In this document: positions 4,233-29,340 of the stretch, piece by piece | Position numbering within the stretch: position 1 is the first letter of the stretch | Layout of the letters: each line of letters starts with the position of its first letter | Assembly (NCBI RefSeq): GCF_018729455.1 | Contig: NZ_JAHHZF010000016.1 | Location: 1-64,000, forward strand | Reading direction: 5' to 3' | Source: Prosthecodimorpha staleyi | GTDB taxonomy: Bacteria > Pseudomonadota > Alphaproteobacteria > Rhizobiales > Ancalomicrobiaceae | DNA: 64,000 nt | Made by a program: the position numbers and the translations under genes | Notes under the pieces: model-generated | What the model was told of the DNA's origin: nothing | Databases searched by the model: none | What the model saw: the letters and a program-made list of their open reading frames with translations, nothing else

Positions 4233-4258
4233 CTCCCGGGGTCGGATGACGCAAGGGC

Positions 4259-5440
4259 TCAGAGCCGCTCGATCGCCAGTGCGATGCCCTGGCCGCCGCC
4301 GATGCACATGGTGATCAGTGCCCGCCGGCCGCCGGTGCGCTTTAGATGCGAGATGGCCTTCACGGTCAGGATGGCGCCGGTGGCGCCGACCGGGTGACCG
4401 AGCGCGATGGCGCCGCCGTCCGGGTTGGTCTTGGCGGGATCGAAGCCGAGATCGCGGGCGACGGCCAGCGCCTGCGCGGCAAAGGCCTCGTTCGATTCGA
4501 CCAGATCGAAATCCTCGATGGTGAGGCCGGTCCGCGCGAGCAGGCTGCGCACCGCCGGCACCGGGCCGATGCCCATCAGGCCCGGTTCGACGCCGGCATG
4601 GGCGTAGCCGATGATGCGGGCCAGTGGGGTCAGCCCAGCGGCGGCCGCGCGGCGCTCGGAGGTCAGCACGACGGCCGCCGCGCCGTCATTGATGCCGGAG
4701 GCGTTGCCGGCCGTGACCGTGCCACCCTTCCGGAAGACGGTCGGCAGCTTGGCGAGGCTTTCGACGGTCGTGTCGGGCTTTGGATATTCGTCGACCGCAA
4801 ACGAGACCGTGGTGCGGCCCTTCTGCACCTCGACGGCGAGGATCTGGTCGGCGAAGCGGCCGTCGGCGAGCGAGGCCGTCGCGCGGCGCTGGCTTTCGGC
4901 GGCGAAGGCGTCCTGCTCGGCGCGCGAGATGCCCCATTTCTCGGCGACGTTTTCGGCCGTGATGCCCATGATGCCGCTGCCGAACGGGTCGGTCAGGACG
5001 CCGGTCAGGCCGTCGGCGAGCGTGGTGTCGCCGAGCCGCTGGCCGAAGCGGCCGGAATTCAGATAGTGCGGCGCCCGGCTCATCACCTCCGCACCGCCCG
5101 CCACCGCGACCTCGACATCGCCGAGCATGATCGACTGTGCGGCGGAGACGATCGCCTGCACGCCGCTGCCGCAGAGCCGGTTCAGCGTCATGGCCGGGGT
5201 GGATTTGGGGATGCCGGCGTCGATGCCCGCGACCCGGGCCAGATAGGCGTCCTGCGGGCCGGTCGGGATGACGTTGCCGAACACGACATGGCCGACCTGT
5301 TCGGCCTCGACCGTCGCGCGCCTCAGCGCTTCCGCCGCCACCTTGGCGCCGAGCCCGGCCGGCGTCTCGCCCGAGAGGCTGCCGCCGAAACTGCCGATCG
5401 CGGTCCGCGCCGCGCCGACGATCACCACCTGTTCGGTCAT
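4259..5440 (-). CDS. Acetyl-CoA acyltransferase (thiolase)
   Basis: At 393 residues the length is standard for thiolase II. The nucleophile is C90 (LNRLCGSG), H349 lies in GGAIALGHPVGATG, and C379 in MCIGGGQG. The enzyme cleaves a 3-oxoacyl-CoA to acetyl-CoA and a shortened acyl-CoA, or runs the reverse condensation. It is the last gene of the eight-gene minus-strand operon that starts at 13005. In an atu-type pathway it would cleave the 3-oxoacyl-CoA produced after loss of the carboxylated methyl branch. The start MTEQVVIVGA is the family's usual N-terminus. Confidence 0.95.
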   Translation of the reverse strand: MTEQVVIVGAARTAIGSFGGSLSGETPAGLGAKVAAEALRRATVEAEQVGHVVFGNVIPTGPQDAYLARVAGIDAGIPKSTPAMTLNRLCGSGVQAIVSAAQSIMLGDVEVAVAGGAEVMSRAPHYLNSGRFGQRLGDTTLADGLTGVLTDPFGSGIMGITAENVAEKWGISRAEQDAFAAESQRRATASLADGRFADQILAVEVQKGRTTVSFAVDEYPKPDTTVESLAKLPTVFRKGGTVTAGNASGINDGAAAVVLTSERRAAAAGLTPLARIIGYAHAGVEPGLMGIGPVPAVRSLLARTGLTIEDFDLVESNEAFAAQALAVARDLGFDPAKTNPDGGAIALGHPVGATGAILTVKAISHLKRTGGRRALITMCIGGGQGIALAIERL

Positions 5441-5480
5441 TCCGCCCCTCCTACTTCTTTCGTTCTGTGTCGTTTGCGGC

Positions 5481-6122
5481 TCAGGTCCGCTCGGCGATCG
5501 AGGCGGCGACGAGGCGCGGATAGTGGGACCGCATCTCGGCCGCAAAGGTCTCGATCGGCATGTCGTCGTAGCTGCCGCGGTCGAGCACATAGTCCATGTG
5601 CCGGCGGCCGTCGGGGTCGAATTCGTGGAAGATCGAGTCGCTGCGGCCGTCGAAATCGAGCGGCTTGACGTTGAACTTCCGGCAGAAGGCCAGGTCGAAG
5701 GCCGGCGTCGCCTTGACCCATTGGCCGTCCAGGTGAAGCACCGTGTAGGCGTGCCAGTAGAAGACGTCGGTGCCGATCAATTCGAGCATGCGCGGCGTCG
5801 AGAGATGGTTGCGCACGTCCGCAAAGCCGATCCGGGCCGGGATGCCCGCCGCTCGCGCCGCCGCGGCCAGCGCGATCGCCTTGGGCACGCAGAAGGCCGC
5901 CGGTGCTGCCAGCACGTTGGAGGCGACGAAAAGATGCGGCTCGATGCCGAAATGGCGCATGTCGTAGGGGATGGCATCGCGCATGGCGTAGTAGAGGCGG
6001 ATTGCCCGTTCGCGGTCGCTGCCCGTGCCGGCATGCCGGGTCACGAAATCCCGCACCGGTTCGGACTGCGAATCGATGAAGGCCGTCGGCTGCAGTGCCG
6101 CGTTCCCGTCAGCCTCGCTCAT
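5481..6122 (-). CDS. Transglutaminase-like cysteine hydrolase family protein
   Basis: The protein has 213 residues with a transglutaminase-core triad: C78 in FCVPKAIALAAAARAAGIPA, H124 in YWHAY, and D143 in the TPAFD segment. No signal peptide is seen. Such proteins in catabolic operons are mostly uncharacterised and may hydrolyse an amide or thioester. ATG 6122 is preferred over ATG 6131 because an AGGGAG site lies 9 bases before it but touches the upstream ATG. The gene sits between the DsbA-fold isomerase and the thiolase in the same operon, so it presumably acts on a pathway intermediate. The reaction is unknown. Confidence 0.8.
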   Translation of the reverse strand: MSEADGNAALQPTAFIDSQSEPVRDFVTRHAGTGSDRERAIRLYYAMRDAIPYDMRHFGIEPHLFVASNVLAAPAAFCVPKAIALAAAARAAGIPARIGFADVRNHLSTPRMLELIGTDVFYWHAYTVLHLDGQWVKATPAFDLAFCRKFNVKPLDFDGRSDSIFHEFDPDGRRHMDYVLDRGSYDDMPIETFAAEMRSHYPRLVAASIAERT

Positions 6123-6135
6123 GGCGCCCATCTCC

Positions 6136-6747
6136 CTATGCCGTTGCGTCTCGGCGCTCGCCGAGCCGCCAGGCGATCTGCGGCAGGCGGTCCGCTCCGA
6201 AGAAGCCCTCGCCGTCGACGACCGCGTAGGGCGAGCCGATCACGCCGATGCCGGCCGCCTCCTCGATCGCCGCCGCCAGCCGGCCGCGGCCGTCTGCCCC
6301 GTCGATCATCGCCTGAACCGCCTCCGGGCCGAAGGCTAGCACGCTCGGCAGGTCGGCCAGCACTGCCCGATCGGCTATGTCGCGGCCCTCGACGAAGAAG
6401 GCGCGGAAGATGTCGCGGGCGAGCGGCAGCGCCAGGTCGGGACGCTCCGCGGTCGCAGCGTGATGCAGCCGGGCGGCGAGATGGGCCGAGATCTGCAACG
6501 GATCCGGCATCCGGTACGGCACGCCATAAAAGGCGGCCGAGCGCGCCACATCCAGGTCGAAATAGGCGCGCCGGGCCGGCTTTTCGAGCGGATTGCCGAC
6601 GCCCTGGCCCTTGAACACCGCCCAGAGCAGGATCGGGCGCAGTTCCAGCGCCCGGCCGTGGCGTGCGGCCAGTTCGGCCAACGGGTCGAGGGCGAAATAG
6701 GCGTAGGGCGAGGCGAAGTCGAAGTAGAGGCGGATCGGTTCGGGCAT
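6136..6747 (-). CDS. DsbA-fold 2-hydroxychromene-2-carboxylate isomerase-like protein
   Basis: The 203-residue protein belongs to the GST-kappa/2-hydroxychromene-2-carboxylate isomerase group: it opens LYFDFASPYAYFALDPL, with S13 where thioredoxin-fold oxidoreductases have the active cysteine, and later has the cis-proline-type segment GVIGSPYAVVDGE. Characterised members isomerise ring-opened naphthalene intermediates with glutathione. No aromatic-ring genes are nearby, so the substrate here is probably different. Start ATG 6747 lies two bases past the stop of the upstream carboxyltransferase gene, which suggests translational coupling. Confidence 0.8.
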   Translation of the reverse strand: MPEPIRLYFDFASPYAYFALDPLAELAARHGRALELRPILLWAVFKGQGVGNPLEKPARRAYFDLDVARSAAFYGVPYRMPDPLQISAHLAARLHHAATAERPDLALPLARDIFRAFFVEGRDIADRAVLADLPSVLAFGPEAVQAMIDGADGRGRLAAAIEEAAGIGVIGSPYAVVDGEGFFGADRLPQIAWRLGERRDATA

Positions 6748-6749
6748 GG

Positions 6750-8357
6750 TCAGAACCTGAAGACGCCGTAGCCCGGAGGTCCGAGCGGGGCATTGAGGGA
6801 GGCCGAGAGGGCAATGGCGAGGGCGTTGCGGGTGTCGACCGGATCGATGATGCCGTCGTCCCACAGTTCCGAGGTCGAGTAGTAGGCCGACAGCTGTTCC
6901 TGGTAGGCCTTGCGGGTCTCTTCCCAGACCTGATCGACCGCCGCCTGATCGAAGGTTCCGCCGGCCCGCTTCATCTGGTTGGCCTTGACCTCGGCCAGCG
7001 TGTTGGCGGCCTGGTCACCGCCCATGACGCCGATCTGGTGGTTCGGCCAGGCGAACAGGAAGCGGCCGTCGAAGGCGCGCCCGCACATGCCGTAATTGCC
7101 GGCGCCGAAGGAGCCGTTGCACATCACGGTGAATTTCGGCACCCGCGAGCAGCTCTGCGCCATGATCATCTTGGCGCCGTCCTTGGTGATGCCGCGGCGC
7201 TCGTATTCGCGGCCGACCATGTAGCCGGTGATGTTCTGCAGGAAGACCAGCGGGGTGTTGTTCTGGTTGCAGAGCTCGATGAAGTGGGCCCCCTTCAGCG
7301 AGCTGTCGTTGAACAGCACGCCGTTATTGGCCAGGATGCCGACCTTGTAGCCCCAGATGTTGGCATAGCCGCAGATCAGCGTGGTGCCGTAATTGGGCTG
7401 GTATTCGTGGAAGCGGCTGCCGTCGACCATGCGGGCGATGATCTCGCGCATGTCGAAGGCCTTCTTGATGTCGTCGGGCACGATCCCGTAGATGTCCTGC
7501 GGATCATAGAAGGGATCCTCCGGCGCCTCGCGCTGCAAAGGCCAGCGCTCCGACCGGTCCCATTGCGCGACGATCTCGCGACCGATCGCGATGGCGTGCT
7601 CCTCGCTGTCGGCCGGGTAATCGCAGGTGCCCGACACGCTGGTATGCATCTCGGCGCCGCCGAGATCCTCGACCGAGACATCCTCGCCGGTCGCGGCCTT
7701 GACCAGCGGCGGCCCGCCCAGGAACACCGCTCCGGTGCCGCGCACGATAACGCTGTAGTCCGAGAGCCCGGGAATGTAGGCGCCGCCGGCCGTGCAATGG
7801 CCGAACACCAGCGACAGCTGCTTGACCCCCATCTTGGACAGGATCGACTGGTTGCGGAAGATGCGGCCGGCCATGTAGCGGTCGGGGAAGACTTGGCTCT
7901 GCAGCTGCAGGAAGCCGCCGGCGGAATCGCACAGATGCACGACCGGCAGGCGGTTCTCCATGGCGATGTCGAGCGCCCGCACGATTTTCTTGGCGGTCAA
8001 CGGATACCAGGCGCCGCCCTTCACGGTCGGGTCGTCGGCGCGCACGATCACCTCGCGCCCCGACACGATGCCGATGCCGACGATCGAACTCGCCGACGGC
8101 GCCTCGCCGCCATAGGCCATGTTGGCGGCGAGCGAGGACAGTTCCAGGAAGGGTGTGCCGGGATCGAGCAGCTTCTCGATCCGCTGGCGCGGGGTCAGCT
8201 TCTTCTGACGGGCGAGCCGGTCGAGGTCGCGCTGCGGCCGCAGATGGCGGGCGGCCTCCTGCTTCTCGCGGAACTCCGCGACCAGGCGCCGATTGTGCGC
8301 CTCGTTGCGGCGGAACTCGGCCGAGGCGGTGTTGATGGAGGATTCGATCCGTCGCAT
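6750..8357 (-). CDS. Acyl-CoA carboxylase carboxyltransferase (beta) subunit, methylcrotonyl/geranyl-CoA type
   Basis: At 535 residues it matches the length of biotin-dependent acyl-CoA carboxylase beta subunits. Typical oxyanion-hole segments are present: GHCTAGGAYIPGLSD, GGPPLVKAATGE in the N domain, and QNITGYMVGREYE with GSFGAGNYGMCGRAFDGR in the C domain. The enzyme transfers CO2 from carboxybiotin to a 3-methyl-2-enoyl-CoA. With an AtuA-family gene in the operon the substrate is more likely a geranyl-CoA-like acyclic terpenoid (AtuC role) than 3-methylcrotonyl-CoA (LiuB role), but sequence alone does not settle this. It is followed by two accessory genes and a thiolase. Confidence 0.9.
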   Translation of the reverse strand: MRRIESSINTASAEFRRNEAHNRRLVAEFREKQEAARHLRPQRDLDRLARQKKLTPRQRIEKLLDPGTPFLELSSLAANMAYGGEAPSASSIVGIGIVSGREVIVRADDPTVKGGAWYPLTAKKIVRALDIAMENRLPVVHLCDSAGGFLQLQSQVFPDRYMAGRIFRNQSILSKMGVKQLSLVFGHCTAGGAYIPGLSDYSVIVRGTGAVFLGGPPLVKAATGEDVSVEDLGGAEMHTSVSGTCDYPADSEEHAIAIGREIVAQWDRSERWPLQREAPEDPFYDPQDIYGIVPDDIKKAFDMREIIARMVDGSRFHEYQPNYGTTLICGYANIWGYKVGILANNGVLFNDSSLKGAHFIELCNQNNTPLVFLQNITGYMVGREYERRGITKDGAKMIMAQSCSRVPKFTVMCNGSFGAGNYGMCGRAFDGRFLFAWPNHQIGVMGGDQAANTLAEVKANQMKRAGGTFDQAAVDQVWEETRKAYQEQLSAYYSTSELWDDGIIDPVDTRNALAIALSASLNAPLGPPGYGVFRF

Positions 8358-8361
8358 GGGG

Positions 8362-8868
8362 TCAGCGCTCCTCGGTCACCGGCTGCAATCGCGCCAGGAC
8401 CGCATCCTTGTCGAACACGTCGCCCTCGCGCACCGCGACCTCGGCCAGGATGCCGTCGCGCGGGGCGGCCAACGCCATCTGCAGTTTCATGCTCTCGATG
8501 GTGATGATCGCCTCGCCGCGGCGCACCGCATCACCGGCCGCCTTGTGGACGGCGACGACAGCGCCGGGCATCGGCGCGCGCACGCGATCGGACCCGCCGC
8601 CGCTCGCCGCGGCCTCGGCGGCCGGGTCGTAGGGCCGCGCCTCGTAGGTACGCCCGTCCAGGCGGATGTCGACGCCGCCGCCGGCGCCGGGCGCGCGCGT
8701 GAAGGCGACCGGTCGGCCGTCGATGCGCAAGCTCTGCGGTCCGGACCGGCCGTCGCACAGGTCCTCGACCCGGTAGCGGTGGCCGCCGATCTCGACGAGG
8801 AGATGCGGGCGGCGGGCCACGATCGCGATGCCGTGGACCTGGCCGTCGATCATGATCTTGAAGGTCAT
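8362..8868 (-). CDS. Biotin carboxyl carrier protein of acyl-CoA carboxylase
   Basis: This separate 168-residue protein ends in a biotinyl domain (residues about 95-165) with the acceptor K128 in IESMKLQM; the usual motif is AMKM. Residues 1-80 resemble the small BT/linker region that precedes the biotinyl domain in methylcrotonyl- and geranyl-CoA carboxylase alpha subunits. It starts two bases after the stop of the biotin carboxylase gene and ends four bases before the carboxyltransferase gene. In most relatives this domain is fused to the carboxylase, so here the alpha subunit is encoded in two pieces. Confidence 0.9.
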   Translation of the reverse strand: MTFKIMIDGQVHGIAIVARRPHLLVEIGGHRYRVEDLCDGRSGPQSLRIDGRPVAFTRAPGAGGGVDIRLDGRTYEARPYDPAAEAAASGGGSDRVRAPMPGAVVAVHKAAGDAVRRGEAIITIESMKLQMALAAPRDGILAEVAVREGDVFDKDAVLARLQPVTEER

Positions 8869-8870
8869 GG

Positions 8871-10391
8871 TCAATTCCTCCAGGCGCCGATGGACGCGTG
8901 CGGCTCCGGCACGTCGAGGACGAGCGCGCGGAATTCGCGCAGGCCGAGCGCGGCGGCGATCAGCGCCTCGTGCAGTCGTCCGGTCTCCGGTGCGCCGGAG
9001 GCGAGCGCCTCGCGGTGCTCGGCGACGAAGCCGGTGTGAAGGTCGCCGGCGCGGAAGGCCGGATGGTCGAGCACCCGGGCCAGATAGTCGATGTTGGTCG
9101 TCACCCCGAACAGCGCGAGGTCGCCGAGCGCGGCGATCGACCGGTCGATGGCTGCCGTGCGGTCGGCGCCATGGGCGACCAGCTTGGCGAGCATCGGATC
9201 GAAATCGGCCGTCACCTTCTGGCCGCGGTCGAGCGCGTTCTCGAAGCGCAGATAGGGGGCTTCGGGCACGGCCAGATGCTGGATGGTGCCGGTCTCGGGC
9301 AGGAAGTCGCGCTCCGGATTCTCTGCGCAGATGCGGCACTCGACGGCATGGCCGCGGGCGGTCACGGCGTCCTGGCCGAAGGGCAGGCCATGGCCGGCGG
9401 CGATCTCCAGCTGCAGCCGCACGAGATCGAGGCCCGTGATCATCTCGGTGACCGGATGCTCGACCTGGAGGCGGGTGTTCATCTCCAGGAAGAAGAAGCG
9501 GCCGTCGGCGCCGAGGATATACTCGACCGTGCCGGCATTGCGGTAGCGCGCGGCGGCGGCGAGACGAACCGCGGAGGCGCAGATCTCGTCGCGCAGACCC
9601 GCCGGCAGGTTGGCGGCCGGAGCCTCCTCGATGATCTTCTGGAAGCGGCGCTGCACCGAGCATTCGCGCTCGAACAGATGGATCGCGCCGCCTTCGCCAT
9701 CGCCGAAGACCTGCACCTCGATATGACGCGGCCGTTCGACGAAGACCTCGGCATAGACGCGACCGTCGCCGAAATAACGCTGCGCCTCGCTCGAGGCGAT
9801 GCGGGCGGCGCCTTCCAACTGGTCCGCCGAGCGGACGATGCTCATGCCCTTGCCACCGCCGCCGGCTGCCGCCTTGATCAGGAGAGGGAAGCCGATCGCC
9901 TCGGCGCGGCGAACGAAATCGGCCAGATCGTCGGTCGGCATCACCGACGGGGCGACCGGGACGCCATGCTGGTCGGCGAAGTTGCGTGCCGAGATCTTGT
10001 CGCCCATCAGCGCGATCGAGGCCGCATCCGGCCCGACGAAGACCAGGCCGGCCTCCGCGACGGCCCGCGCAAAGCCGGCATTCTCGGACAGGAAGCCGTA
10101 GCCCGGATGGATCGCGTCCGCCCCGGTGGCGAGCGCCGCGGCGACGATCTGACGGATGTCGAGATGGGCGGCGACCGGGGTGTCGCCCTTCAATTCGACC
10201 GCCTCGTCGGCGAGCCGGACATGCTGGGCGCGCGCCTCGACGGCATGATGCACCGCAACCGCCGCGATGCCCATCTCGCGCAGGGTCCGGATGATACGGC
10301 AGGCGATCTCGCCGCGATTGGCGATCAGCACCTTGCGGAATGGGACGTGACGCGACGCCCGCCCGGCAGGATCGGAGGAGGAGAGGCTCAT
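8871..10391 (-). CDS. Biotin carboxylase subunit of acyl-CoA carboxylase
   Basis: The 506-residue ATP-grasp enzyme contains KVLIANRGEIACRIIRT, the glycine-rich loop KAAAGGGGKGM, RDCS-like ERECSVQRR, and EMNTRLQVEHPVTE. It carboxylates biotin with ATP and bicarbonate. It lacks the BT and biotinyl domains that complete a 650-670-residue alpha subunit in canonical methylcrotonyl- or geranyl-CoA carboxylase; those are supplied by the next gene. Its ATG overlaps the stop of the AtuA-family gene (ATGA). It acts with the carboxyltransferase encoded at 6750-8357. Confidence 0.95.
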   Translation of the reverse strand: MSLSSSDPAGRASRHVPFRKVLIANRGEIACRIIRTLREMGIAAVAVHHAVEARAQHVRLADEAVELKGDTPVAAHLDIRQIVAAALATGADAIHPGYGFLSENAGFARAVAEAGLVFVGPDAASIALMGDKISARNFADQHGVPVAPSVMPTDDLADFVRRAEAIGFPLLIKAAAGGGGKGMSIVRSADQLEGAARIASSEAQRYFGDGRVYAEVFVERPRHIEVQVFGDGEGGAIHLFERECSVQRRFQKIIEEAPAANLPAGLRDEICASAVRLAAAARYRNAGTVEYILGADGRFFFLEMNTRLQVEHPVTEMITGLDLVRLQLEIAAGHGLPFGQDAVTARGHAVECRICAENPERDFLPETGTIQHLAVPEAPYLRFENALDRGQKVTADFDPMLAKLVAHGADRTAAIDRSIAALGDLALFGVTTNIDYLARVLDHPAFRAGDLHTGFVAEHREALASGAPETGRLHEALIAAALGLREFRALVLDVPEPHASIGAWRN

Positions 10392-12214
10392 CGGCGGGTT
10401 TCCATGGCGGCGACACCTTCGAGGCGGCCACCGGGTTGGAGCCAGGCAGCGGGCACCGGCACGGGCATGTCCATCAGCACCTGCGCCATGGCCTTGCCTT
10501 GCGGATCGTAGCGCAGCGACGCGATGCCGCCGCCGCCGAGCGCGCGGTGCAGGAGGAAGTTGAAACCGTCGAGGCCGGGCCAGTCGAAGCGCTCGACCGG
10601 GCCGCGGACGTGGTGGGCGAACCAGCCGCGCACGGCTTCCGCCGTCAGCGCGCGGGCGATCGGCGCCACGAAGTCCGGGTGCCGCGCCATCACGCCGATA
10701 TTGGCGATGTCGCCCTTATCGCCGCTGCGGGCCGTGGCCAGAGCGACCAGCGGCACGGCGACGGTCGGTCCATCCGGCACCGGCGCCGTTGCGACCTCGC
10801 CGGGGGCGGTCTCCGGGACGGAGCGCTCGGTTCCCGGCGCGGTCGCAACCTCGATCGCGGCGTCGCCGGTCTTCACCGACACGACGACATCGCGCTTGTC
10901 GATCAGGAAGGAGAACAGCCGCACCACCGGCTGCGGCTCGGGCCGGCCGCCGGCAAAGCCGGTCAGGCTCTGCGCCATCGCGGTGGCGGCGGGATAGATC
11001 TCGCGGGCGAAGATCTGCAGCGCGTCCCGGCTGGCATGGCGCACGCCGACCTTCAGGATCACCTCGCGCGCCGGCGAGGCGGCGGGGGCGACGCCGTAGC
11101 TGGTCTCCGCGCCGAGCACTTCGATCGACGTTTCCGCAAACCGGTCGAACCCTGCCGCCGCGATCAGCCGCTCGGAGCGGGCCAGGATCGCCGTGCCGAC
11201 CTTCTCGGCCCGCAGCGCCGCGTCGCGGCCGACGATCATCATGGTCGCGGTGCAGCGCCAGCCGTCCGCATAGGTGGCGCTGACCTTGTAACTCGGCGTC
11301 GGCGGCAGGCCGCGCGCGCCGGTGACCCGGACCCGGTCCGGCCCGACGGCCTCCAGCCTGACGTCCGACCAGTCGCAGATCACGTCGGGAAGCAGATAGG
11401 CGGCCGGATCGCCGACCTCGTAGACGACCTGCTCGGCGACGATTGGAGGCGTGATCCGACCGCCGGTGCCGTCCGGCTTGCCGACCTCGAAGCTGCCGTC
11501 CGCCCGGCAATCGGCGATGGGGAAGCCCATGTCGGCCCAGTCGTCGGCGACCGCGCGCCAGTCGGTCGTGATCCCGCCGGTCGCCTGCGCGCCGCATTCC
11601 AGGATGTGACCCGCGAGGCTGCCGGCCGAGAGCTGATCGTAGTCTTCCGGCGTCCAGCCGAACTCGTGGATCAGCGGCCCCAGCACCACCGCGCTGTCGA
11701 CGCAGCGGCCGGTGACCACCACGTCGGCGCCGGCATCGAGCGCGGCGGCGACGCCGAAGGCGCCCAGATAGGCATTGATGCTGGCGGTCTTCGCCGGGAA
11801 GGGGGCGCCCGAGAACATCTCGGTGACGCCGGCGGCGCGGAACTGCTCGGCCCGGTCGGACAGGTCGTCGCCGGTCACCACCGCGACCTTGAGATCGACC
11901 CCGACTTCCGCGAAGGCGGCCAGCAGTGCGTCACGGCAGGCTTCCGGATTGACCCCGCCGGCATTGGTGACGACGCGGATGCGCTTCTCCGCGATCTCGC
12001 GGGCGAGCGGTTTCATGACCAGCGACACGAAGTCGGTCGCATAGCCGAGGGTCGGCGTCTTGGCCTTCATCCGGGCCAGGATCGACATGGTGATCTCGGC
12101 CAGATAGTCGAGCACCAGATAGTCGATCCCGCCGGAGCGGACGAGCTGGCGCGGGCCTTCCGGGCTGTCGCCCCAGAAGCCGGCGCCGCAGCCGATGCGG
12201 ATGGTGTCGCGCAT
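10388..12214 (-). CDS. atuA: AtuA family protein (acyclic terpene utilisation, DUF1446)
   Basis: The 608-residue protein opens MRDTIRIGCGAGFWGDSPE, typical of the AtuA/DUF1446 family, and ends in the AtuA-like ferredoxin-fold domain (from about residue 485, VALATARSGDKGDIANIG). In Pseudomonas the first gene of the acyclic terpene utilisation cluster encodes this family; its biochemical role is not firmly known. No HMG-CoA-lyase-like gene is present here, so AtuA might act after hydration of the carboxylated intermediate, which is inference. The start at 12214 is nine bases past the stop of the enoyl-CoA hydratase gene. Confidence 0.85.
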   Translation of the reverse strand: MRDTIRIGCGAGFWGDSPEGPRQLVRSGGIDYLVLDYLAEITMSILARMKAKTPTLGYATDFVSLVMKPLAREIAEKRIRVVTNAGGVNPEACRDALLAAFAEVGVDLKVAVVTGDDLSDRAEQFRAAGVTEMFSGAPFPAKTASINAYLGAFGVAAALDAGADVVVTGRCVDSAVVLGPLIHEFGWTPEDYDQLSAGSLAGHILECGAQATGGITTDWRAVADDWADMGFPIADCRADGSFEVGKPDGTGGRITPPIVAEQVVYEVGDPAAYLLPDVICDWSDVRLEAVGPDRVRVTGARGLPPTPSYKVSATYADGWRCTATMMIVGRDAALRAEKVGTAILARSERLIAAAGFDRFAETSIEVLGAETSYGVAPAASPAREVILKVGVRHASRDALQIFAREIYPAATAMAQSLTGFAGGRPEPQPVVRLFSFLIDKRDVVVSVKTGDAAIEVATAPGTERSVPETAPGEVATAPVPDGPTVAVPLVALATARSGDKGDIANIGVMARHPDFVAPIARALTAEAVRGWFAHHVRGPVERFDWPGLDGFNFLLHRALGGGGIASLRYDPQGKAMAQVLMDMPVPVPAAWLQPGGRLEGVAAMETRR

Positions 12215-12222
12215 GGCCGGCC

Positions 12223-13005
12223 TCACTTGCCGGTCCACACCGGCGGGCGCTTCTCGGCGAAGGCGGTGAAGCCTTCGCGGGCGTCCTCGGTGCGGGCCAT
12301 GTTGGCGAGCATGAATTGCGCATATTCGAGCGCGGCGTCGGTCGACATCTCGCGGATCTTCGCGAGCGCCTGCTTGCCGAGACGGATGCCGGTCGGCGAC
12401 TTGTCGACGATGCGGCCGATGAGCCAGTCGGTCTTGGCATCGAGCTCGGAGGCCGGCACCGCATAGTTGACGATCGAGGCGGCCTCCGGGTCTCCGGCGC
12501 GGATCAATTCCCCGGTGATGCACAATTCGGTCAGACGGCGATAGGGCAGCACGCGTAAGAGATAGGGCAGGATCATCATCGGGAAGAGGCCGACCTTGAC
12601 CTCAGTGACGCCCATCAGCGCATCCTCGCGGGCGACCACCAGGTCGCAGGCGCAGACCAGCCCGAAGCCGCCGGCCAGCGCATGGCCGTTGACGCGCGCC
12701 ACGATCGGCAGGCGGCAGGCATCCATCCGGCGCAGCAGGCGGCTGACATAGTGGCGCGGATCGGCGGCGTCGATGGTGAAGGGCGTGCCGTCGGCGCCGG
12801 GCTTCAGGTCGCCGCCGGCACAGAAGGCCTTGTCGCCGGCGCCGGTCAGGACGACCACGCGCACTTCGGGATCGGCCTCGGCGGCATCGAGCGCCACCAC
12901 GATGGCGGCGGCGACGGATTCGTTCAGCGCGTTGCGGCGGCTCTCGCGGTCGATGGTGACGACCATCGCGGCGCCTTCGCGACGGGTGGTGACGGCGTCG
13001 GTCAC
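12223..13005 (-). CDS. Enoyl-CoA hydratase/isomerase family protein
   Basis: The 260-residue crotonase has the oxyanion segments FCAGGDL and VNGHALAGGFGLVCACDLVVA, and the helix VTEVKVGLFPMM where catalytic glutamates sit. It is the first gene of the minus-strand carboxylase operon. In the atu pathway this position would be the isohexenylglutaconyl-CoA hydratase (AtuE); in leucine breakdown it would be methylglutaconyl-CoA hydratase. GTG 13005 is chosen because GGGAGG lies just upstream; a TTG four codons earlier falls inside that ribosome site. Confidence 0.9.
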   Translation of the reverse strand: MTDAVTTRREGAAMVVTIDRESRRNALNESVAAAIVVALDAAEADPEVRVVVLTGAGDKAFCAGGDLKPGADGTPFTIDAADPRHYVSRLLRRMDACRLPIVARVNGHALAGGFGLVCACDLVVAREDALMGVTEVKVGLFPMMILPYLLRVLPYRRLTELCITGELIRAGDPEAASIVNYAVPASELDAKTDWLIGRIVDKSPTGIRLGKQALAKIREMSTDAALEYAQFMLANMARTEDAREGFTAFAEKRPPVWTGK

Positions 13006-13291
13006 GATTCCTCCCAAGTCGGTGGGTCCGTCCGGCGCCCGAAACAGCGGCCGGCGAACTCTTCGCCTCGTAAATGATTTGAGTTCATTTGTGCTGTCAA
13101 TATGCCTTCGCGGCCAATTCAGCGCTTCCCCGCGCGAAATCTGAACCTTGCCCGAAAGGCCCGGAAAACGAGTGTTGACACTGCGGTCCGGTCACTGATG
13201 AAATGCGCTCAGTAAAAACGGTCGGAACGGCCGGGTTCGCTGTCGTTGCCGGATCGGTCGCGGCGGCCGGCCCTTCCAGGGAGGAGACGAA
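13006..13291. promoter_or_regulatory. Divergent promoter region of the atu-like locus with candidate TetR operator
   Basis: This gap separates the minus operon (starting at 13005) from the plus operon (starting at 13292). A perfect inverted repeat AAATGA-N7-TCATTT lies at 13072-13090. On the minus strand a TTGACA box (13100 down to 13095) precedes it, so the repeat would sit over the -10 region of that promoter, as expected for a repressor site. On the plus strand a TTGACA box lies at 13175-13180 with a weak -10. The TetR protein encoded at 16025-16753 is the obvious candidate ligand. Confidence 0.5.
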
Positions 13292-14515
13292 ATGAACGCT
13301 GCCAGCGGAGTTGGGGCGGGGCGCAACCAGGCCATGGCCTTCGATCTCGACGAGGATCAGCGCGCCATTCTCGATCAGGCCGACCGCTTCGGCCGCAACG
13401 AACTCTATCCTCTCTGCCGGCGCATGGACGACGAGGAGTGGTGGCCGGAGGAGGCCTTTCCGAAGCTCGGCGCGGCCGGCTTCTTCGGTGCCACCATCCC
13501 CGAGCAATATGGCGGGGCCGGGCTCGATCTGCTCGCCGCCGGCCTGGTGCTGCAGGGCTTCAGCCGCTGGAACCACGCCATGGCGCTGTCGGTGGCGGCG
13601 CACGACAATCTCTGCGCCAACAACATCTACCGAAACGGCAACGAGGACCAGCGCCGGCGCTATCTGCCCGATCTCTGCGCCGGCCGCACCATCGGCGCGC
13701 TCGGCCTGACCGAACCGGGGGCCGGCTCCGACGCGCTCGGCTCGATGCGCACCACCGCCCGCCGCGACGGCGACCATTATGTGCTGAACGGATCGAAGAT
13801 CTACATCACCAACGGTCCGGTCGCCGACGTGCTGCTGGTCTATGCCAAGACCGACAAGGAGCGCGGCGCGAAGGGCATCTCGGCCTTCATCGTCGAGAAG
13901 GATTTCCCCGGCTTCCGCGTGGCGCAGAAGCTGGTGAAGATGGGCTATCGCGGAAGTCAGACCGCCGAACTGGTGTTCGAGGATTGCCGCGTGCCGGTCG
14001 CGAACCGGGTCGGCGAGGAGAATCAGGGCGTCGCCGTCGTGATGAGCGGCCTCGATCTGGAACGGGCCATGATCTCGCCGATCTGCCTCGGCGTCGCCGA
14101 GCGGGCGCTCGAGCTTTCGATCGACTATGCCAAGACGCGCCAGCAGTTCGGCAAGCCGATCGGGTCCTTCCAGATGGTCCAGTCGATGCTGGCCGACATG
14201 TATGTGCTGGTCGAGACCATGCGCAGCTTCACCTACCGGGTGCTCGCGGAAGCCGCCCCGCTGGAGATCGGCGGCGGCGGGCGCGGCGACATCCACAAGC
14301 TGACCGCGGCCTCGGTTATGTATGCCGCCGAGGCCTGCCACCAGGTGCTGGATAAGGCCGTCCAGGTCCATGGCGGCAGCGGCTACATCTGGGAATCGGA
14401 GATCAATCGCCTGTTCCGGAGCACCAAGCTCCTGGAGATCGGTGCCGGCACGACCGAAGTCCGCAAGATGATCATCGCCGGCGAACTCCTGAAGGGCATG
14501 ACGCGGAATGGCTGA
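13292..14515 (+). CDS. Acyl-CoA dehydrogenase, isovaleryl-/citronellyl-CoA type
   Basis: The 407-residue FAD enzyme has the three acyl-CoA dehydrogenase domains (GLTEPGAGSDA, YITNGPVAD, then the C-terminal helical bundle). The glutamate found as YEGT in most family members is missing: the segment reads LEIGAGTTE with A385 there. Instead E257 in GLDLER occupies the helix position used by isovaleryl-CoA dehydrogenase. This arrangement tolerates a 3-methyl branch, so a branched substrate such as citronellyl-CoA or isovaleryl-CoA is expected. GGGAGGAGACGAA precedes the ATG. It overlaps the next gene by 8 bases. Confidence 0.92.
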   Translation: MNAASGVGAGRNQAMAFDLDEDQRAILDQADRFGRNELYPLCRRMDDEEWWPEEAFPKLGAAGFFGATIPEQYGGAGLDLLAAGLVLQGFSRWNHAMALSVAAHDNLCANNIYRNGNEDQRRRYLPDLCAGRTIGALGLTEPGAGSDALGSMRTTARRDGDHYVLNGSKIYITNGPVADVLLVYAKTDKERGAKGISAFIVEKDFPGFRVAQKLVKMGYRGSQTAELVFEDCRVPVANRVGEENQGVAVVMSGLDLERAMISPICLGVAERALELSIDYAKTRQQFGKPIGSFQMVQSMLADMYVLVETMRSFTYRVLAEAAPLEIGGGGRGDIHKLTAASVMYAAEACHQVLDKAVQVHGGSGYIWESEINRLFRSTKLLEIGAGTTEVRKMIIAGELLKGMTRNG

Positions 14516-15413
14516 GGCGACCTCCGGACAGGCCCCCGAATTCGGGCTCGAAGATGCCGATCTGGCCGCGGAACCGACCGTGTTCGGCGAGACGGCGTTT
14601 GCCGGCAAGACCGTGCTGATCTCCGGCGGCGCCGGCGGCATCGGCAAGGCGACGGCCTGGCTGATGGCTCGCTGTGGTGCCGCCGTCGTGCTGACCGGGC
14701 GCGACGAGGCCAAGCTCGACAGCGCCGTGGCCGCCTTGCGCGCCGCCGGTCTGGACGCTTCGGCGAAACCCTGCAACGTGCGCGATCCGGCCTCGATCGC
14801 CGCGTTGCACGACTGGATCTGGGACGAGATCGGCGGGCTCGACATTCTCGTCAACAGCGCCGGCGGACAATTCCCTCAGCCGGCGATCGACTTCTCGGTC
14901 AAGGGTTGGAACGCCGTCATCGACACCAACCTGAACGGCACCTGGTACATGATCCAGGAAGCCGGGCGGCGCTGGCGCGACGCCGGGCGGCCGGGCAGCA
15001 TCGTCTCGATCGTGGTCGTCACCCGGCAGGGCCTGCACGGGGTCGCCCATTCGATCGCGGCGCGCTCCGGCGTGATCGGGCTGACCCAGGCGCTGGCCGT
15101 GGAATGGGCCCCGCTCAACATCCGCATCAACTGCGTCGCGCCCGGGTCGATCGAGACGCCCGGCTGGCGGGTCTACGATCCGAGCGTGATCACCGCCTAT
15201 CCGCGCTCGAACCCGATGATGCGCACGGCCAGCAGCTGGGAGGTGGCCGAGGCCTGCGCCTATCTGACCGGGGACGGCGCGCGCTACGTTACCGGAGAAG
15301 TCTTGAACGTCGCCGGCGGCGGCCAGCTGTGGGGCGAGACCTGGACGATCCCGCGTCCGGATTATTTCAGCGGCCCCGGCCGTACCCTGCGCCAAAAGGA
15401 CGATACGCCATGA
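14508..15413 (+). CDS. Short-chain dehydrogenase/reductase, AtuB/peroxisomal enoyl-CoA reductase-like
   Basis: The 301-residue protein has a Rossmann motif GGAGGIG (residues 40-46) and NSAGGQFPQPAIDFSVKGWNAV, a signature shared with AtuB/AtuG-type and peroxisomal trans-2-enoyl-CoA reductases. The usual Tyr-x-x-x-Lys is replaced: the aligned stretch at 181-186 reads HSIAAR, as in that subgroup. A 28-residue N-terminal arm precedes the fold. The enzyme could oxidise citronellol/citronellal or reduce a 2-enoyl-CoA. It overlaps the acyl-CoA dehydrogenase gene upstream and the MaoC gene downstream. Confidence 0.88.
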   Translation: MAEATSGQAPEFGLEDADLAAEPTVFGETAFAGKTVLISGGAGGIGKATAWLMARCGAAVVLTGRDEAKLDSAVAALRAAGLDASAKPCNVRDPASIAALHDWIWDEIGGLDILVNSAGGQFPQPAIDFSVKGWNAVIDTNLNGTWYMIQEAGRRWRDAGRPGSIVSIVVVTRQGLHGVAHSIAARSGVIGLTQALAVEWAPLNIRINCVAPGSIETPGWRVYDPSVITAYPRSNPMMRTASSWEVAEACAYLTGDGARYVTGEVLNVAGGGQLWGETWTIPRPDYFSGPGRTLRQKDDTP

Positions 15414-15841
15414 CCCAGCCGCCGCTCGAAATCGGCAAGACCTATCTCACCCCCGGCCGCACGGTCGGGGAGGGCGACATCACCCTGTTCGCGGGTCTGG
15501 TCGGCGACTTCACGCCCGTCCACATGGATGCGGACTATTGCAGCCGGACGAGCTTCGGCAGCCGCATCGCCCACGGCCCGCTGACCATGGCGACCGCCAT
15601 CGGCCTGTTCACCCATGTCGGCGTCCTGGGCGAACGGGTCGTCGCGCTCCTGAACCTGAACTGGGATTTCTCCGCCCCGGTGCGCATCGGCGACACCATC
15701 CGGGCCGAGGTCACCATCGAGGCGCTCCGCCCGACCTCGAAGGGCGGACGCCATGTCTGCTCCCTGCTGTTCCGGGTGCTGAACCAGACCGGCGCAGAAA
15801 TCCAGCGCGGCACCATGAAGGTTCTGCTGCAGGGGCTTTGA
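15410..15841 (+). CDS. MaoC-like (R)-specific enoyl-CoA hydratase family protein
   Basis: The 143-residue hot-dog-fold protein carries the hydratase-2 motif in VGDFTPVHMDADY (D33, H38) followed by GSRIAHGPLTM. Family members add water to trans-2-enoyl-CoA or related thioesters. The ATG overlaps the upstream stop (ATGA), so it is translated with the reductase. It is the last gene of the three-gene plus operon that diverges from the carboxylase operon. Confidence 0.9.
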   Translation: MTQPPLEIGKTYLTPGRTVGEGDITLFAGLVGDFTPVHMDADYCSRTSFGSRIAHGPLTMATAIGLFTHVGVLGERVVALLNLNWDFSAPVRIGDTIRAEVTIEALRPTSKGGRHVCSLLFRVLNQTGAEIQRGTMKVLLQGL

Positions 15842-16024
15842 GTCCGCAGGTGCACGGGGTGTCGGGGGCAGAGCCGCCCGGGCCGTCGCCCGGCCTTCGG
15901 CTTGCTTGTCCGGACCTCGAATCTCCCGATCTCGCAGTCTCGGTCCGGCTGCCGTCGGCGGGGCTGGGAGCCACGGGGCAGGGCGGAGGCGTTCGTGCGA
16001 ACGCCGCTCCCCCGGGGAATTCGG

Positions 16025-16753
16025 CTACGCCGTCTTTCGAACGCGCTTCTTCGGCGGCGTTTCGGTGATCGCTTCCAGGCGCTGGGTGGCGGCGTCGAGG
16101 CGGGCGAAGAGGGTGTCGAAGGTGACGGCGCCCTTCCGGTCTGTGGCGAGGCCGCGATAGACCATGTTGGTGATTTGGTCGGCGATCTGATCGGGATCGA
16201 AATCGCCCTCGTTGCGCAGGAAGGCCCAGGTGCGATGCTCGATCGCGCCGAAGACCATGTCGCGCACTAGGCTCGGCGACGTGTCCGGGCGCAGTTCCCC
16301 ATTGGCGACCGCCGCTTTCACGACATCGATGAGACGGTGGGTATAGGCCTGATTGAGCTTGAACAGTCGCGAGCCGCGATAGTCGGGGGTCGGGCGGATC
16401 TCTTGGAACATCAGCCGCGACAAGGCCGGATCGCGCCGGATCGACATGAGATGCGTGTGGACGATGAAGCGGATCTGGTTCCAGACGCCGCGAATGCCTG
16501 CGAACTGTTCGGCATCCTGGGTCAGAAGTTCCTCGAACCAGAGTTCGACGACCTTGACCAGAAGCTCGCGCTTGTTGGCGAAGAAGCGATAGATGCTGCC
16601 TTCGACGACGCCGGCCCTCACGGCAATGTCCGTGATCAGGGCTTCGCTGTAGCCCTTTTCTGTAAACACATCGCGCGCCGCCTTCATGATGTCGGAGATC
16701 CGGCGTTCCGGCGGCAGCCGGTTGACCTGTCTTTTCACCGCACTTCGTGCCAT
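16025..16753 (-). CDS. TetR/AcrR-family transcriptional regulator
   Basis: The 242-residue protein has an N-terminal TetR helix-turn-helix (residues about 18-65, ending ITDIAVRAGVVEGSIYRFF) and an all-helical ligand domain. GGGAG lies 5 bases before the ATG. It is 44 bp downstream of an acyl-CoA ligase gene on the same strand and next to the atu-like operons; in Pseudomonas a TetR repressor (AtuR) controls atu genes. It is therefore the best candidate for binding the AAATGA-type sites at 13072 and 18751. The ligand is probably an acyl-CoA, which is inference. Confidence 0.9.
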   Translation of the reverse strand: MARSAVKRQVNRLPPERRISDIMKAARDVFTEKGYSEALITDIAVRAGVVEGSIYRFFANKRELLVKVVELWFEELLTQDAEQFAGIRGVWNQIRFIVHTHLMSIRRDPALSRLMFQEIRPTPDYRGSRLFKLNQAYTHRLIDVVKAAVANGELRPDTSPSLVRDMVFGAIEHRTWAFLRNEGDFDPDQIADQITNMVYRGLATDRKGAVTFDTLFARLDAATQRLEAITETPPKKRVRKTA

Positions 16754-16797
16754 TCCGCTCCCTTTCCGGTGGTGTCTGGAATTGCCAGCGTCGGAGT

Positions 16798-18770: not shown

Positions 18771-18817
18771 GCACATGCAGCATGGTGTCGTGTCGCGCTG
18801 CGGGACGGGATGGTGGC

Positions 18818-19606
18818 ATGCTTGCGCTGACCAACGTCCAAGTCCTCTACGATCGCTCGATACAGGCGGTGCGCGACGTGTCGCTGACCGTGCCGCAGGG
18901 CAAGGTGGTCGCCCTGCTCGGCTCCAACGGGGCCGGCAAGTCGACCATCCTGAAGGCGATTTCCGGCGTGCTCGGCCAGGAAGACGGCGAGGTCATCGGC
19001 GGTGACATCCGCTTCGAGGGCAGCAGCCTCCTCGGCGCCCCGCCGCGGGCGATTATCGAGCGTGGGCTGCTCCAGGTGCCGGAGGGGCGCGCGCTGTTCG
19101 CGACCCTGACGGTCGAGGAGAACCTGATCATGGGCGGCTACCTCCGCTCGCCGGCCGAAACGCGCGAGGGGCTGGAGCGGATCTATGCCATGTTCCCCCG
19201 CGTCAAGGAGCGGCGCAAGCAGATCGCCGGCTACCTGTCGGGCGGCGAACAGCAGATGGTCGCGATCGGGCGGGCCCTGATGGGGCGACCGCGGCTCCTG
19301 ATGCTCGACGAGCCGTCGCTCGGCCTCGCGCCCCAGATCGTGGAGACGATCTTCGAGACCGTGTTGGCGCTGAACCGCGACACCGGGCTGACCGTGCTGC
19401 TGGTCGAGCAGAACGCCCAGGTGGCGCTGAAGGCGGCGAGCTACGGCTACATCATCGAGAACGGGCGCATCGTGCTGGACGGCCCGGCCGAGAAGCTGGC
19501 CGCCAATGACGATGTGCAGGAGTTCTATCTCGGCTTCGCGGCCGGCGAACGGAAGAGCATGCGCGACGTGAAGCACTACAAGCGTCGCAAGCGGTGGCTG
19601 TCATGA
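18818..19606 (+). CDS. livF: ABC transporter ATP-binding protein, LivF type (module 1)
   Basis: The 262-residue ATPase has Walker A at 35-42 (GSNGAGKS), signature LSGGEQQ at 140-146 and Walker B LLMLDEP at 160-166. It pairs with the LivG-type ATPase encoded next, overlapping by ATGA. Its C-terminus ends in a strongly basic tail, [11 protein letters not shown], shared with the LivF of module 2. The start ATG 18818 is the first that gives the normal family N-terminus (MLALTNVQVLY). The substrate of the transporter is not shown; the operon's ligase suggests a carboxylic acid. Confidence 0.92.
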   Translation: MLALTNVQVLYDRSIQAVRDVSLTVPQGKVVALLGSNGAGKSTILKAISGVLGQEDGEVIGGDIRFEGSSLLGAPPRAIIERGLLQVPEGRALFATLTVEENLIMGGYLRSPAETREGLERIYAMFPRVKERRKQIAGYLSGGEQQMVAIGRALMGRPRLLMLDEPSLGLAPQIVETIFETVLALNRDTGLTVLLVEQNAQVALKAASYGYIIENGRIVLDGPAEKLAANDDVQEFYLGFAAGERKSMRDVKHYKRRKRWLS

Positions 19607-20376
19607 GCAGGATTCTCGAACTCGAAGGCGTCAGCAAACGCTTCGGCGGGCTGACCGCCGTCAACGAGGTCAGTCTCTCCGTCGAGGAGGGACAGATCTA
19701 CAGCCTGATCGGTCCGAATGGGGCCGGCAAGACGACCCTGTTCAACCTGATCAGTGCCGTGCTGGCACCGACCTCCGGCCGGATCGTGTTCGACGGACGC
19801 GACATCACGCGCCTGCCGACCCATGCGCTGGCACGGCTCGGCATCGCCCGGACCTTCCAGAACCTGGCCGTTTTCAAGCACGAGACCGTGGTCAACAACC
19901 TGCTCGTCGGCCTGCACACCCATCTCGGCGCGGATCCGATCTCGGCCGCCTTCTTCTGGGGACGGGCGCGCCGGGAGGAGTTGAAGGCGCGCGAACGGGT
20001 CGAGGAGATCATCGACTTCCTGGAGATCGAGGACCTGCGCGACCATGTCGTCGGCACGCTCTCCTACGGCCAGCAGAAGCGGGTCGAACTCGGCCGGGCG
20101 CTGGCCATCGGGCCGCGGCTGCTTCTGCTCGACGAGATGGTCTCGGGCATGAACCAGGAGGAGCGCGAGGACATCGCCCGCTTCATCCTGGACCTCAAGG
20201 AGGAACTCGGAATGACCGTGTTCATGGTCGAACACGACATGGGCATCGTGATGGACATCTCCGACCACGTCTGCGTCGTCAATCACGGCCGCAAGATCGC
20301 CGATGGAACGCCGGCCGAGGTCGCCGCCGACCCGGCCGTGATCGAGGCCTATCTCGGGACGAAGCAGGCAGCATGA
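19603..20376 (+). CDS. livG: ABC transporter ATP-binding protein, LivG type (module 1)
   Basis: The 257-residue ATPase has Walker [10 protein letters not shown] (37-45), signature [15 protein letters not shown] and Walker B LLLLDEM, followed by the LivG-type SGMNQEE. It forms the ATPase pair with the preceding LivF-type protein on the cytoplasmic face of the importer. Start and stop overlap the neighbouring genes by ATGA on both sides, so LivF, LivG and the ligase are translationally coupled. Confidence 0.93.
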
Positions 20377-22217: not shown

Positions 22218-23089
22218 TGGATTTCCTGGTTCTCCTGATCGCCACCGGCCTCGTCGCCGGCGCCACCTACGGGCTGATCGCGATCGGCTTCGCGCTGATC
22301 TACAAGGCGACCGGCGTGGTCAATTTCGCCCAGGGCGAGCTGGTCATGCTGACCGCCTATATCGGCTACTCGCTCGCCGGCGCCTTCGGGCTCACCTTCA
22401 TTCCGCTGCTCTTGGTCGCGGTGCCGATCTCGATGGCGGTCGGCCTGGTTCTGGAACGCATCTTCATTCGCCCTATGCTCGGCGAGCCGCCCTTCGCCAT
22501 CGTCATGGTCACGGTCGGACTGGCCGTCATACTGCGCGGCCTGATCATCGTGGTCTGGGGCTCCCAGCCGGCCAATTTCGATGCCGGCATCCCGACCACG
22601 GTGATCCGTCTCGGCAACGTGCCCTTCTATCCGGCGCAGCTGATCATGATCGCCGCGCTCGGACTGGTGGTTCTCGCCATGTGGGCCTTCATGCGCTTCA
22701 GCCGCTACGGCATCGCCATGCGGGCGGTCGCCGCCAACGAGACGGCGGCGCTTTTGACCGGGGTCAGCGTCAGCCGCATCCACGCGCTCGCCTGGGTGCT
22801 CTCCTCCGGCATCGCCGCGATCGCCGGCATGCTGTTCGCGGCCAACTTCAAGCTGGCGCCGGACCTCTGGTTCCAGGGCCTGAAATCCTTCCCGGCCGTG
22901 ATCCTCGGCGGCATGGATTCGATCGTCGGCGCGGCGGTCGGCGGCATCGCGATCGGTCTGATAGAGAGCCTGTCGCAGGGCTATATCGGCGAGGGCATGC
23001 GCGAGATCGCCGGCTTCATCGTCATCATCCTGGTCCTGATGGTGCGTCCCTACGGGCTGTTCGGCAGCCGTGATATCGAGCGGGTGTGA
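22217..23089 (+). CDS. livH: ABC transporter permease, LivH type (module 1)
   Basis: The 290-residue protein is almost entirely hydrophobic with about eight membrane segments and opens LIATGLVAGATYGLIAIGFALIY, the LivH pattern. GGMDSIVGAAVGGI near the C-terminus is the usual cytoplasmic loop facing the ATPases. Its ATG overlaps the ligase stop codon (TGATG). It forms the channel with the LivM-type protein encoded next. Confidence 0.93.
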   Translation: MDFLVLLIATGLVAGATYGLIAIGFALIYKATGVVNFAQGELVMLTAYIGYSLAGAFGLTFIPLLLVAVPISMAVGLVLERIFIRPMLGEPPFAIVMVTVGLAVILRGLIIVVWGSQPANFDAGIPTTVIRLGNVPFYPAQLIMIAALGLVVLAMWAFMRFSRYGIAMRAVAANETAALLTGVSVSRIHALAWVLSSGIAAIAGMLFAANFKLAPDLWFQGLKSFPAVILGGMDSIVGAAVGGIAIGLIESLSQGYIGEGMREIAGFIVIILVLMVRPYGLFGSRDIERV

Positions 23090-23090
23090 G

Positions 23091-24137: not shown

Positions 24138-24163
24138 GAAACGTACGATACCCGGAGGAAACC

Positions 24164-25330: not shown

Positions 25331-25350
25331 GCCGAGTGGGGAGCGCCGCG

Positions 25351-29335: not shown

Positions 29336-29340
29336 CGCCC

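Follow-up and report, generated by a model that had tools for sequence, protein, structure and literature searches.

The window analysed here is a stretch of 64,000 nucleotides from Prosthecodimorpha staleyi (contig NZ_JAHHZF010000016.1), and its subject is a cluster of two divergent operons in which AtuA stands beside a biotin-dependent carboxylase, probably a gamma-carboxylase, whose carboxyltransferase falls in a third clade. The cluster genes are long open reading frames (ORFs), mostly abutting or overlapping, with strong Pfam matches. The minus-strand operon (13005 to 4259) has the order crotonase, AtuA, biotin carboxylase (BC), biotin carboxyl carrier protein (BCCP), carboxyltransferase (CT), 2-hydroxychromene-2-carboxylate (HCCA) isomerase-like protein, transglutaminase-like protein and thiolase, while the plus-strand operon (13292-15841) has the order acyl-CoA dehydrogenase, short-chain dehydrogenase/reductase (SDR) and MaoC. 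The features of both operons are given below.

4259..5440, minus strand: BktB-like thiolase, at the end of the minus operon; NF006552 608.8 bits, cut-off 565
5481..6131, minus strand: transglutaminase-like protein; PF01841, E 3.5e-12
6136..6747, minus strand: HCCA-isomerase / kappa-class GST-like protein; PF01323
6750..8357, minus strand: CT (beta subunit), third clade, probably of gamma-carboxylases; PF01039 and tree
8362..8868, minus strand: separate BCCP; PF00364, E 2.5e-16, biotin motif ESMKL
8871..10391, minus strand: separate BC; PF00289, PF02786, PF02785
10388..12214, minus strand: AtuA; PF07287, E 9e-141, and PF23544, E 3e-24
12223..13005, minus strand: crotonase; PF00378, E 9e-54
13292..14515, plus strand: acyl-CoA dehydrogenase, isovaleryl-CoA-dehydrogenase type; PDB matches
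14508..15413, plus strand: SDR; PF13561, E 9e-50
15410..15841, plus strand: MaoC-like hydratase, ending the plus operon; PF01575, E 3e-20

The thiolase reached 571.5 bits against the BktB equivalog model NF042999, which is below the cut-off of 725. The first-pass annotation had described AtuA, a crotonase, a carboxylase, a thiolase, an isovaleryl-type dehydrogenase, a reductase, a TetR regulator and a ligase, and all of these were recovered in place by the ORFs and the Pfam matches. The BCCP gene, the HCCA-isomerase-like and transglutaminase-like proteins, MaoC and a Liv-type ABC transporter operon that includes a second ligase were found in addition. The observation was confirmed and the interpretation proved half right: a route for 3-methyl-branched acids in two divergent operons stands, but the Atu system itself does not, as the carboxylase data below indicate.

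Conservation of the cluster

AtuA relatives were sought in named genomes, 80 loci being kept of at least 583 confirmed stretches, and the neighbourhoods of 86 loci (numbered with L) were compared with the window proteins, leaving aside blast matches of low coverage or overlapping a better match. The whole set is repeated in a congeneric species (L035), whose AtuA and CT are 93% and 99% identical to those of the window, and in a second genus of the family (L034). The cluster core extends to a further family within the order (L037 with L167), and the same gene order was also found in other Pseudomonadota. The arrangement therefore goes beyond chance, because the same order returns in other species, in other genera and elsewhere in the Pseudomonadota.

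A crotonase relative lies directly before AtuA in L034, L035, L037, L078, L081 and others, TetR relatives are present in other loci with the cluster, and MaoC relatives occur in L035, L077 and L080. The tblastn search of 22 loci gave relatives of the transglutaminase-like protein at three loci besides the window (L034, L035, L081) and of the HCCA-isomerase-like protein also at three (L034, L035, L078); a partial match to the former was seen in L110. The AMP-forming ligase next to the cluster (16798-18354) has tblastn matches of 64-94% in L034, L035, L080 and L167. Relatives of the transporter ATPase and ligase adjoin the cluster in L034, L035 and L037, and the ATPases are found in L080 as well.

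Carboxylase and dehydrogenase of the cluster

The class of the window CT was analysed by scores, by trees and by its pocket residue. The protein gave 603 bits against Pseudomonas methylcrotonyl-CoA carboxylase (MCC; PaMCC) and 449 bits against geranyl-CoA carboxylase (PaGCC). Against a chain labelled PCC beta (9tps), which shows the MCC-type segment with Phe, it gave 596 bits, and against the next PCC-labelled chain (1vrg) 264 bits; bit-score similarity alone is misleading for the class of this protein. The trees were made from carboxyltransferases of AtuA loci plus those added from relatives, a quick one with 81 rows and a careful one with 57 of those, 24 long or near-duplicate rows being left out; the PCC outgroup was removed owing to its very long branch. 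The careful tree separated a geranyl type (100/100), a methylcrotonyl type (97/91), which leaves out the window CT, and a third group of 20 rows with the window CT (100/100). The third group had 25 rows in the 81-row tree at an SH-like approximate likelihood ratio test (SH-aLRT) value of 100. The window CT thus stands apart from the carboxyltransferases of canonical-looking atu loci, the groups being separate at 100/100 each.

Passages of PMC4673880 describe the geranyl type by Gly and a three-residue deletion and the methylcrotonyl type by a pocket Phe with the insertion; the pocket residue is said there to decide the fit of geranyl-CoA, and its mutation to shift substrate preference in both known enzymes. 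The column of human MCC Phe191 was located by numbering the residues of the human chain through the alignment. In the 81-row tree, Phe occupied this position in all 24 methylcrotonyl-type rows, and the 32 geranyl-type rows had a small pocket residue with the three-residue deletion. The third group had Ala in 12 and Gly in 13 of its 25 rows and kept the insertion in 23. The window CT has Ala at the Phe191/Gly162 pocket position and keeps the methylcrotonyl-type insertion, so that it shows neither the Gly with absent insertion of the geranyl-CoA carboxylase beta subunit nor the Phe of the methylcrotonyl-CoA carboxylase beta subunit. It should accept something larger than 3-methylcrotonyl-CoA, since the residue deciding geranyl-CoA fit is Ala in place of Phe. 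The phylogenetic check proposed in the first-pass annotation, in which the CT was to be placed with geranyl- or methylcrotonyl-CoA carboxylases, put it outside both clades. The third clade suggests that the Phe/Gly guideline, as worded in the passages of PMC4673880, should be extended by a third class; carboxylase annotation would thereby be corrected in a range of Pseudomonadota.

The alpha subunit is also divided. An excerpt of PMC4673880 gives biotin carboxylase and carrier on one chain in methylcrotonyl- and geranyl-CoA carboxylases. The window has BC and BCCP as two genes of 506 and 168 residues, and their sum of 674 compares with 676 residues in the fused MCC alpha found elsewhere in this genome. 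In a forced alignment with that fused protein, the two genes part at about residue 527, between its carboxylase and carrier regions. The window BC is 51% identical to the N-terminal part of the fused protein, and the BCCP aligns with fused alpha subunits in their C-terminal part. A biotin-carboxylase-type ORF of less than 700 residues, counted with the earliest start, was found in 25 loci (two cut by the contig or locus end), with L034 in addition. Split-type carboxylase genes also occur in three Nevskiaceae loci (L091, L093, L100), whose readable CTs (L091, L093) have the deletion with Gly. Neighbours in L091 match thiolase/lipid-transfer and HMG-CoA-synthase models below cut-offs, and neighbours are common to the three loci; the context is perhaps that of sterol side chains.

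A plain geranyl-CoA carboxylase was ruled out by the clade of the CT and the missing three-residue deletion, and by descent the window CT would not be counted as a geranyl-CoA carboxylase. The acyclic monoterpene substrate implied by the first-pass annotation was not borne out, because the CT lies outside the geranyl-type clade, has no geranyl-type deletion and works with an alpha subunit split in two. A true acyclic terpene pathway, for citronellate or geranate, with a diverged geranyl-CoA carboxylase would explain the presence of AtuA, the atu-like kinds of parts and the small pocket residue; it is unlikely in view of these carboxylase features and of the extra thiolase, MaoC and ABC transporter genes.

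All five PDB sequences that the acyl-CoA dehydrogenase matched with E values of 1e-96 or lower are isovaleryl-CoA dehydrogenases, and 4o5m, 4kto and 1ivh are its closest solved relatives. It has EIGAGT as in these relatives and LDLER as in 1ivh. The Glu of LDLER, together with EIGAGT, where the usual catalytic Glu is lost, would mark the moved catalytic Glu of the isovaleryl-CoA dehydrogenase type. The enzyme would fit a substrate branched at C3. The HCCA-isomerase-like protein had its best PDB match with 3fz5, a possible 2-hydroxychromene-2-carboxylate isomerase (E 3e-22), and it is a guess that it acts as an isomerase on the enoyl-CoA. The transglutaminase-like protein had no PDB sequence match at E 0.1.

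AtuA and the lyase step

The AtuA protein passes both curated cut-offs, with 470.1 bits against 22.8 (PF07287) and 86.1 against 27 (PF23544). Its AlphaFold model, made from 37 sequences, had a pLDDT of 88.8 and a pTM of 0.90. The comparison of the model with the PDB using Foldseek gave 9evf_A, a citramalate lyase with ADP and pyruvate, at E 4e-22, which was the only match at E 0.001; the two structures aligned with Z 31.3 over 421 of 456 residues at 3.8 A and 18% identity. The match to the small chain 9evf_B was weak (E 6.8e-3, TM 0.65 by target), and its size leads to the guess that it falls on the C-terminal domain of AtuA. HMG-CoA lyase was not among the structure matches listed for the model, which excludes nothing. 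The AtuA profile also matches 9erq_A by sequence (E 1.9e-8), the same protein as in 9evf, which its depositors named AtuA family protein and citramalate lyase subunit A. The residues R170, D173, E206, C207, Y265, E266, P270 and K310 are invariant in the 37 AtuA sequences and identical in the aligned segments of 9erq_A. In several relatives AtuA is made of two ORFs, of about 450 and at least 104 residues, which resembles the two-chain citramalate lyase. The use of ATP by AtuA is suggested solely by the ADP in the title of 9evf. The citramalate lyase match supplies a mechanism to test for AtuA.

DUF1446 is the older name of the AtuA family. In E. coli O157:H7, according to an excerpt of PMC4682846 (2015), the gene for methylaspartate ammonia-lyase is followed downstream by one for a DUF1446 protein, and the fate of citramalate is described there as not known. 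Passages of PMC12016498 state, from unpublished results of its authors, that the AtuA-like ThnQS cleave tertiary-hydroxy dicarboxylic acyl-CoA. The literature, so far as these excerpts go, divides the acetate-releasing step of Atu between AtuA, given for it in PMC4847356 among enzymes characterised or tentatively identified, and LiuE (PMC4097962).

The P. staleyi genome is a draft of 47 contigs, 99.96% complete, with 6.19 Mb. PF00682 had three matches in it, named LeuA, NifV and CimA by NCBIfam and none of them an HMG-CoA lyase, and the HMG-CoA lyase model NF004283 gave nothing at E 1e-40, either here or in the relative's genome G001. The earlier statement that no HMG-CoA-lyase-like gene is present therefore holds genome-wide in the draft. 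AtuA is probably a 3-hydroxy-3-alkylglutaryl-CoA lyase releasing acetate, because of the citramalate lyase fold match, the reported activity of the AtuA-like ThnQS and the lack of an HMG-CoA lyase among the genes found. This is in accordance with the first-pass annotation, where AtuA had been offered as one candidate for the lyase step. A genome with an AtuA-carboxylase cluster in which no HMG-CoA lyase was found would be a clean test case for AtuA against LiuE.

The distribution of HMG-CoA lyase was surveyed in 61 genomes, namely this one and 60 relatives. A carboxyltransferase matching the genome's MCC beta at E 1e-80 was present in 38 of them; in 20 of these 38 the search for HMG-CoA lyase gave nothing at E 1e-40, and a full-length AtuA was missing as well from 16 of the 20. 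This weakened the argument that AtuA must be the lyase as no other exists, and so the lyase claim rests mainly on the fold, on ThnQS and on gene linkage.

A separate locus of the genome (L042) encodes an isovaleryl-type dehydrogenase together with both MCC subunits, the fused alpha and a beta that has the pocket Phe. The window cluster is thus unlikely to serve leucine, and the leucine pathway, named in the first-pass annotation as the main alternative, was ruled out as the leading explanation by this leucine-type set. A second leucine or isovalerate pathway, with AtuA in place of the missing HMG-CoA lyase, is very unlikely. The isovaleryl-type dehydrogenase, the midpoint rooting of the tree, which puts the window CT on the methylcrotonyl side, and the lack of a detected HMG-CoA lyase agree with it, but L042, the pocket Ala and the 16 surveyed genomes with neither lyase nor full-length AtuA speak against it.

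In the AtuA tree, 26 of 27 split-type rows fell in a group of 39 (SH-aLRT 87) together with 10 rows labelled 'none' and 3 geranyl-type rows; the 'none' label includes contigs ending near AtuA, and L037, L077 and L100 were called split by hand. The mixed group indicates that lyase and carboxylase did not travel strictly together. Close to the cluster, L105 (575-2512) and six loci related to it carry a ligase that matches the acetate/acetoacetate--CoA ligase family, though below the cut-offs; such a neighbour would suit an acetate-freeing lyase. In L033 an AtuA gene is found near an HMG-CoA-lyase-like gene (3781-4740, 8865-10628), in a stretch with no gamma-carboxylase match.

Shared repeat, proposed regulon and known systems

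The cluster is flanked by a TetR gene and an AMP ligase gene on the minus strand, and a Liv-type ABC transporter operon runs divergently from them. These features and the candidate operators are listed below.

13073..13089, no strand: candidate operator AATGA-N7-TCATT, between the divergent operons
16025..16753, minus strand: TetR regulator; PF00440, PF17932
16798..18354, minus strand: AMP-forming acyl-CoA ligase; PF00501
18574..18590, no strand: second, less regular candidate operator copy, between acs-tetR and the transporter operon
18812..25330, plus strand: Liv-type ABC transporter operon including the second ligase; Pfam
18812-19606 and 19594-20376, plus strand: transporter operon ATPases; Pfam
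20373-22217, plus strand: transporter operon ligase; Pfam
22217-23089 and 23070-24137, plus strand: transporter operon permeases; Pfam
24089-25330, plus strand: transporter operon binding protein; Pfam

The 17-bp inverted repeat AATGA-N7-TCATT has perfect arms at 13073-13089 and is less regular at 18574-18590; no further place was found within the 64-kb window with a slightly looser pattern. The pattern came from the divergent promoter pair of L034, whose alignment gave a common stretch that 0 of 200 shuffles equalled, and was then widened to the window sites, so that L034 and the window are not independent tests. It occurs at 3 places in the 6.19-Mb genome, two of which are the window promoters, where 0.41 sites are expected by base composition and the backwards control gave 0. 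The third place, which overlaps the start of a LysR-like ORF (named by eye), was taken as chance because of this expectation. The exact repeat was found in 7 of 26 split-type loci, at a total of 11 sites that lie near dehydrogenase/crotonase, tetR/dehydrogenase or transporter genes, against 1 site in the 57 other AtuA loci; L037, L077, L078, L081 and L082 played no part in defining the pattern. No sigma-70-like promoter was found in 12900-18900. The repeat likely ties both operons, TetR, the CoA ligase and the Liv-type ABC transporter into one regulon, and TetR is the probable owner of the candidate operator.

The gene content, the CT clade, the AtuA fold match and the shared repeat together point to a probable regulon by which a soluble acid, methyl-branched at C3 and larger than isovalerate, would be taken up and degraded, with AtuA as the putative lyase. 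The branched acid would be imported by the ABC transporter and converted by the AMP ligase to its CoA ester, which the isovaleryl-type dehydrogenase would oxidise to the 3-methyl-2-enoyl-CoA. BC, BCCP and CT, as a biotin enzyme of three polypeptides, would carboxylate the methyl group, and the crotonase would hydrate at C3 to give 3-hydroxy-3-R-glutaryl-CoA, whose tertiary alcohol could not be oxidised. AtuA would split off acetate, perhaps in an ATP-dependent manner, and the thiolase would act on the 3-oxoacyl-CoA that is left. SDR and MaoC would serve further rounds of beta-oxidation, and TetR would probably repress all the operons through the shared inverted repeat. A more detailed version can be offered only tentatively, namely a separate regulon for a medium-sized imported methyl-branched acid, with a third, three-polypeptide gamma-carboxylase, an AtuA which uses ATP to yield acetate or acetyl phosphate, and the HCCA-isomerase-like protein giving the geometric isomer that the carboxylase uses.

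Several results weigh against the proposed regulon or its lyase. Fold similarity in itself establishes no reaction for AtuA. An HMG-CoA-lyase match at E 1e-40 was present in all 17 named AtuA-locus genomes tested (over the cut-off in 16), and AtuA is therefore not simply a substitute for that enzyme; Paracoccus alkenifer DSM 11593 and Solimonas variicoloris DSM 15731, for instance, carry the cluster and an HMG-CoA lyase as well. The 16 surveyed genomes with neither protein and the frequent lack of HMG-CoA lyase in this order imply that some other lyase may exist and could serve here, and the review PMC4097962, in the part available, gives LiuE the acetate-lyase step in Pseudomonas. The pathway as described, with AtuA in another role and cleavage by a lyase encoded elsewhere, would accommodate these points, but it is improbable given the fold and sequence match of AtuA to citramalate lyase, the reported activity of ThnQS (PMC12016498, in excerpt) and the adjoining AtuA and carboxylase genes in many loci. 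As to the regulon, 33 of 200 shuffles reached the alignment score of the window's two divergent promoters, and 19 of 26 split-type loci are without the exact repeat, some of them lacking the region. Family scans of neighbours (some genes, in related loci) gave no clear pointer to the substrate; they returned a TRAP transporter, aldehyde dehydrogenase, thioesterases, TetR, thiolase-like and ligase genes and unrelated genes.

Further ORFs lie around the cluster. A nitronate-monooxygenase-like ORF (25138-26319) comes directly after the binding-protein gene that ends the first transporter operon. A second Liv-type transporter set follows at 26966-35636; it comprises two permeases, a binding protein and an AMP ligase, together with a further AMP-binding protein and a crotonase. 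A long ORF at 2175-4232 (earliest start) had no Pfam match at 1e-5 and has the look of a zinc carboxypeptidase by eye, and an ORF of 2537 codons occupies 45244-52857 on the minus strand.

The cluster was compared with known systems; in the titles and abstract openings of the open-access papers searched, no description of the split cluster or of structure 9evf was found. Its logic is that of Atu, but its carboxylase forms a separate clade, and the cluster is probably neither the Atu (geranyl-CoA) system proper nor the leucine pathway. It shares AtuA, gamma-carboxylase, acyl-CoA dehydrogenase, crotonase, SDR, ligase and TetR with Pseudomonas atu (PMC4847356, in excerpt; loci like L151), but differs in the CT clade with Ala and no deletion, the split alpha subunit and the gene order, and adds the thiolase, MaoC, HCCA-isomerase-like, transglutaminase-like and ABC transporter genes. 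The liu pathway for leucine and isovalerate has the dehydrogenase, gamma-carboxylase and crotonase logic in common, whereas the window has AtuA and a replaced pocket Phe in a genome with a separate leucine-type set. The citramalate lyase CmlA (9erq, 9evf) shares the predicted fold over 421 residues with the window AtuA, and both would cleave a tertiary hydroxy acid; the window AtuA is one fused chain against two in 9evf, is 18% identical and presumably acts on a CoA ester. ThnQS of anaerobic naphthalene degradation, AtuA-like in the passages of PMC12016498, act on a tertiary-hydroxy acyl-CoA as is proposed for the window AtuA; they are encoded by two genes, have a cyclic substrate and are likened to it by description.

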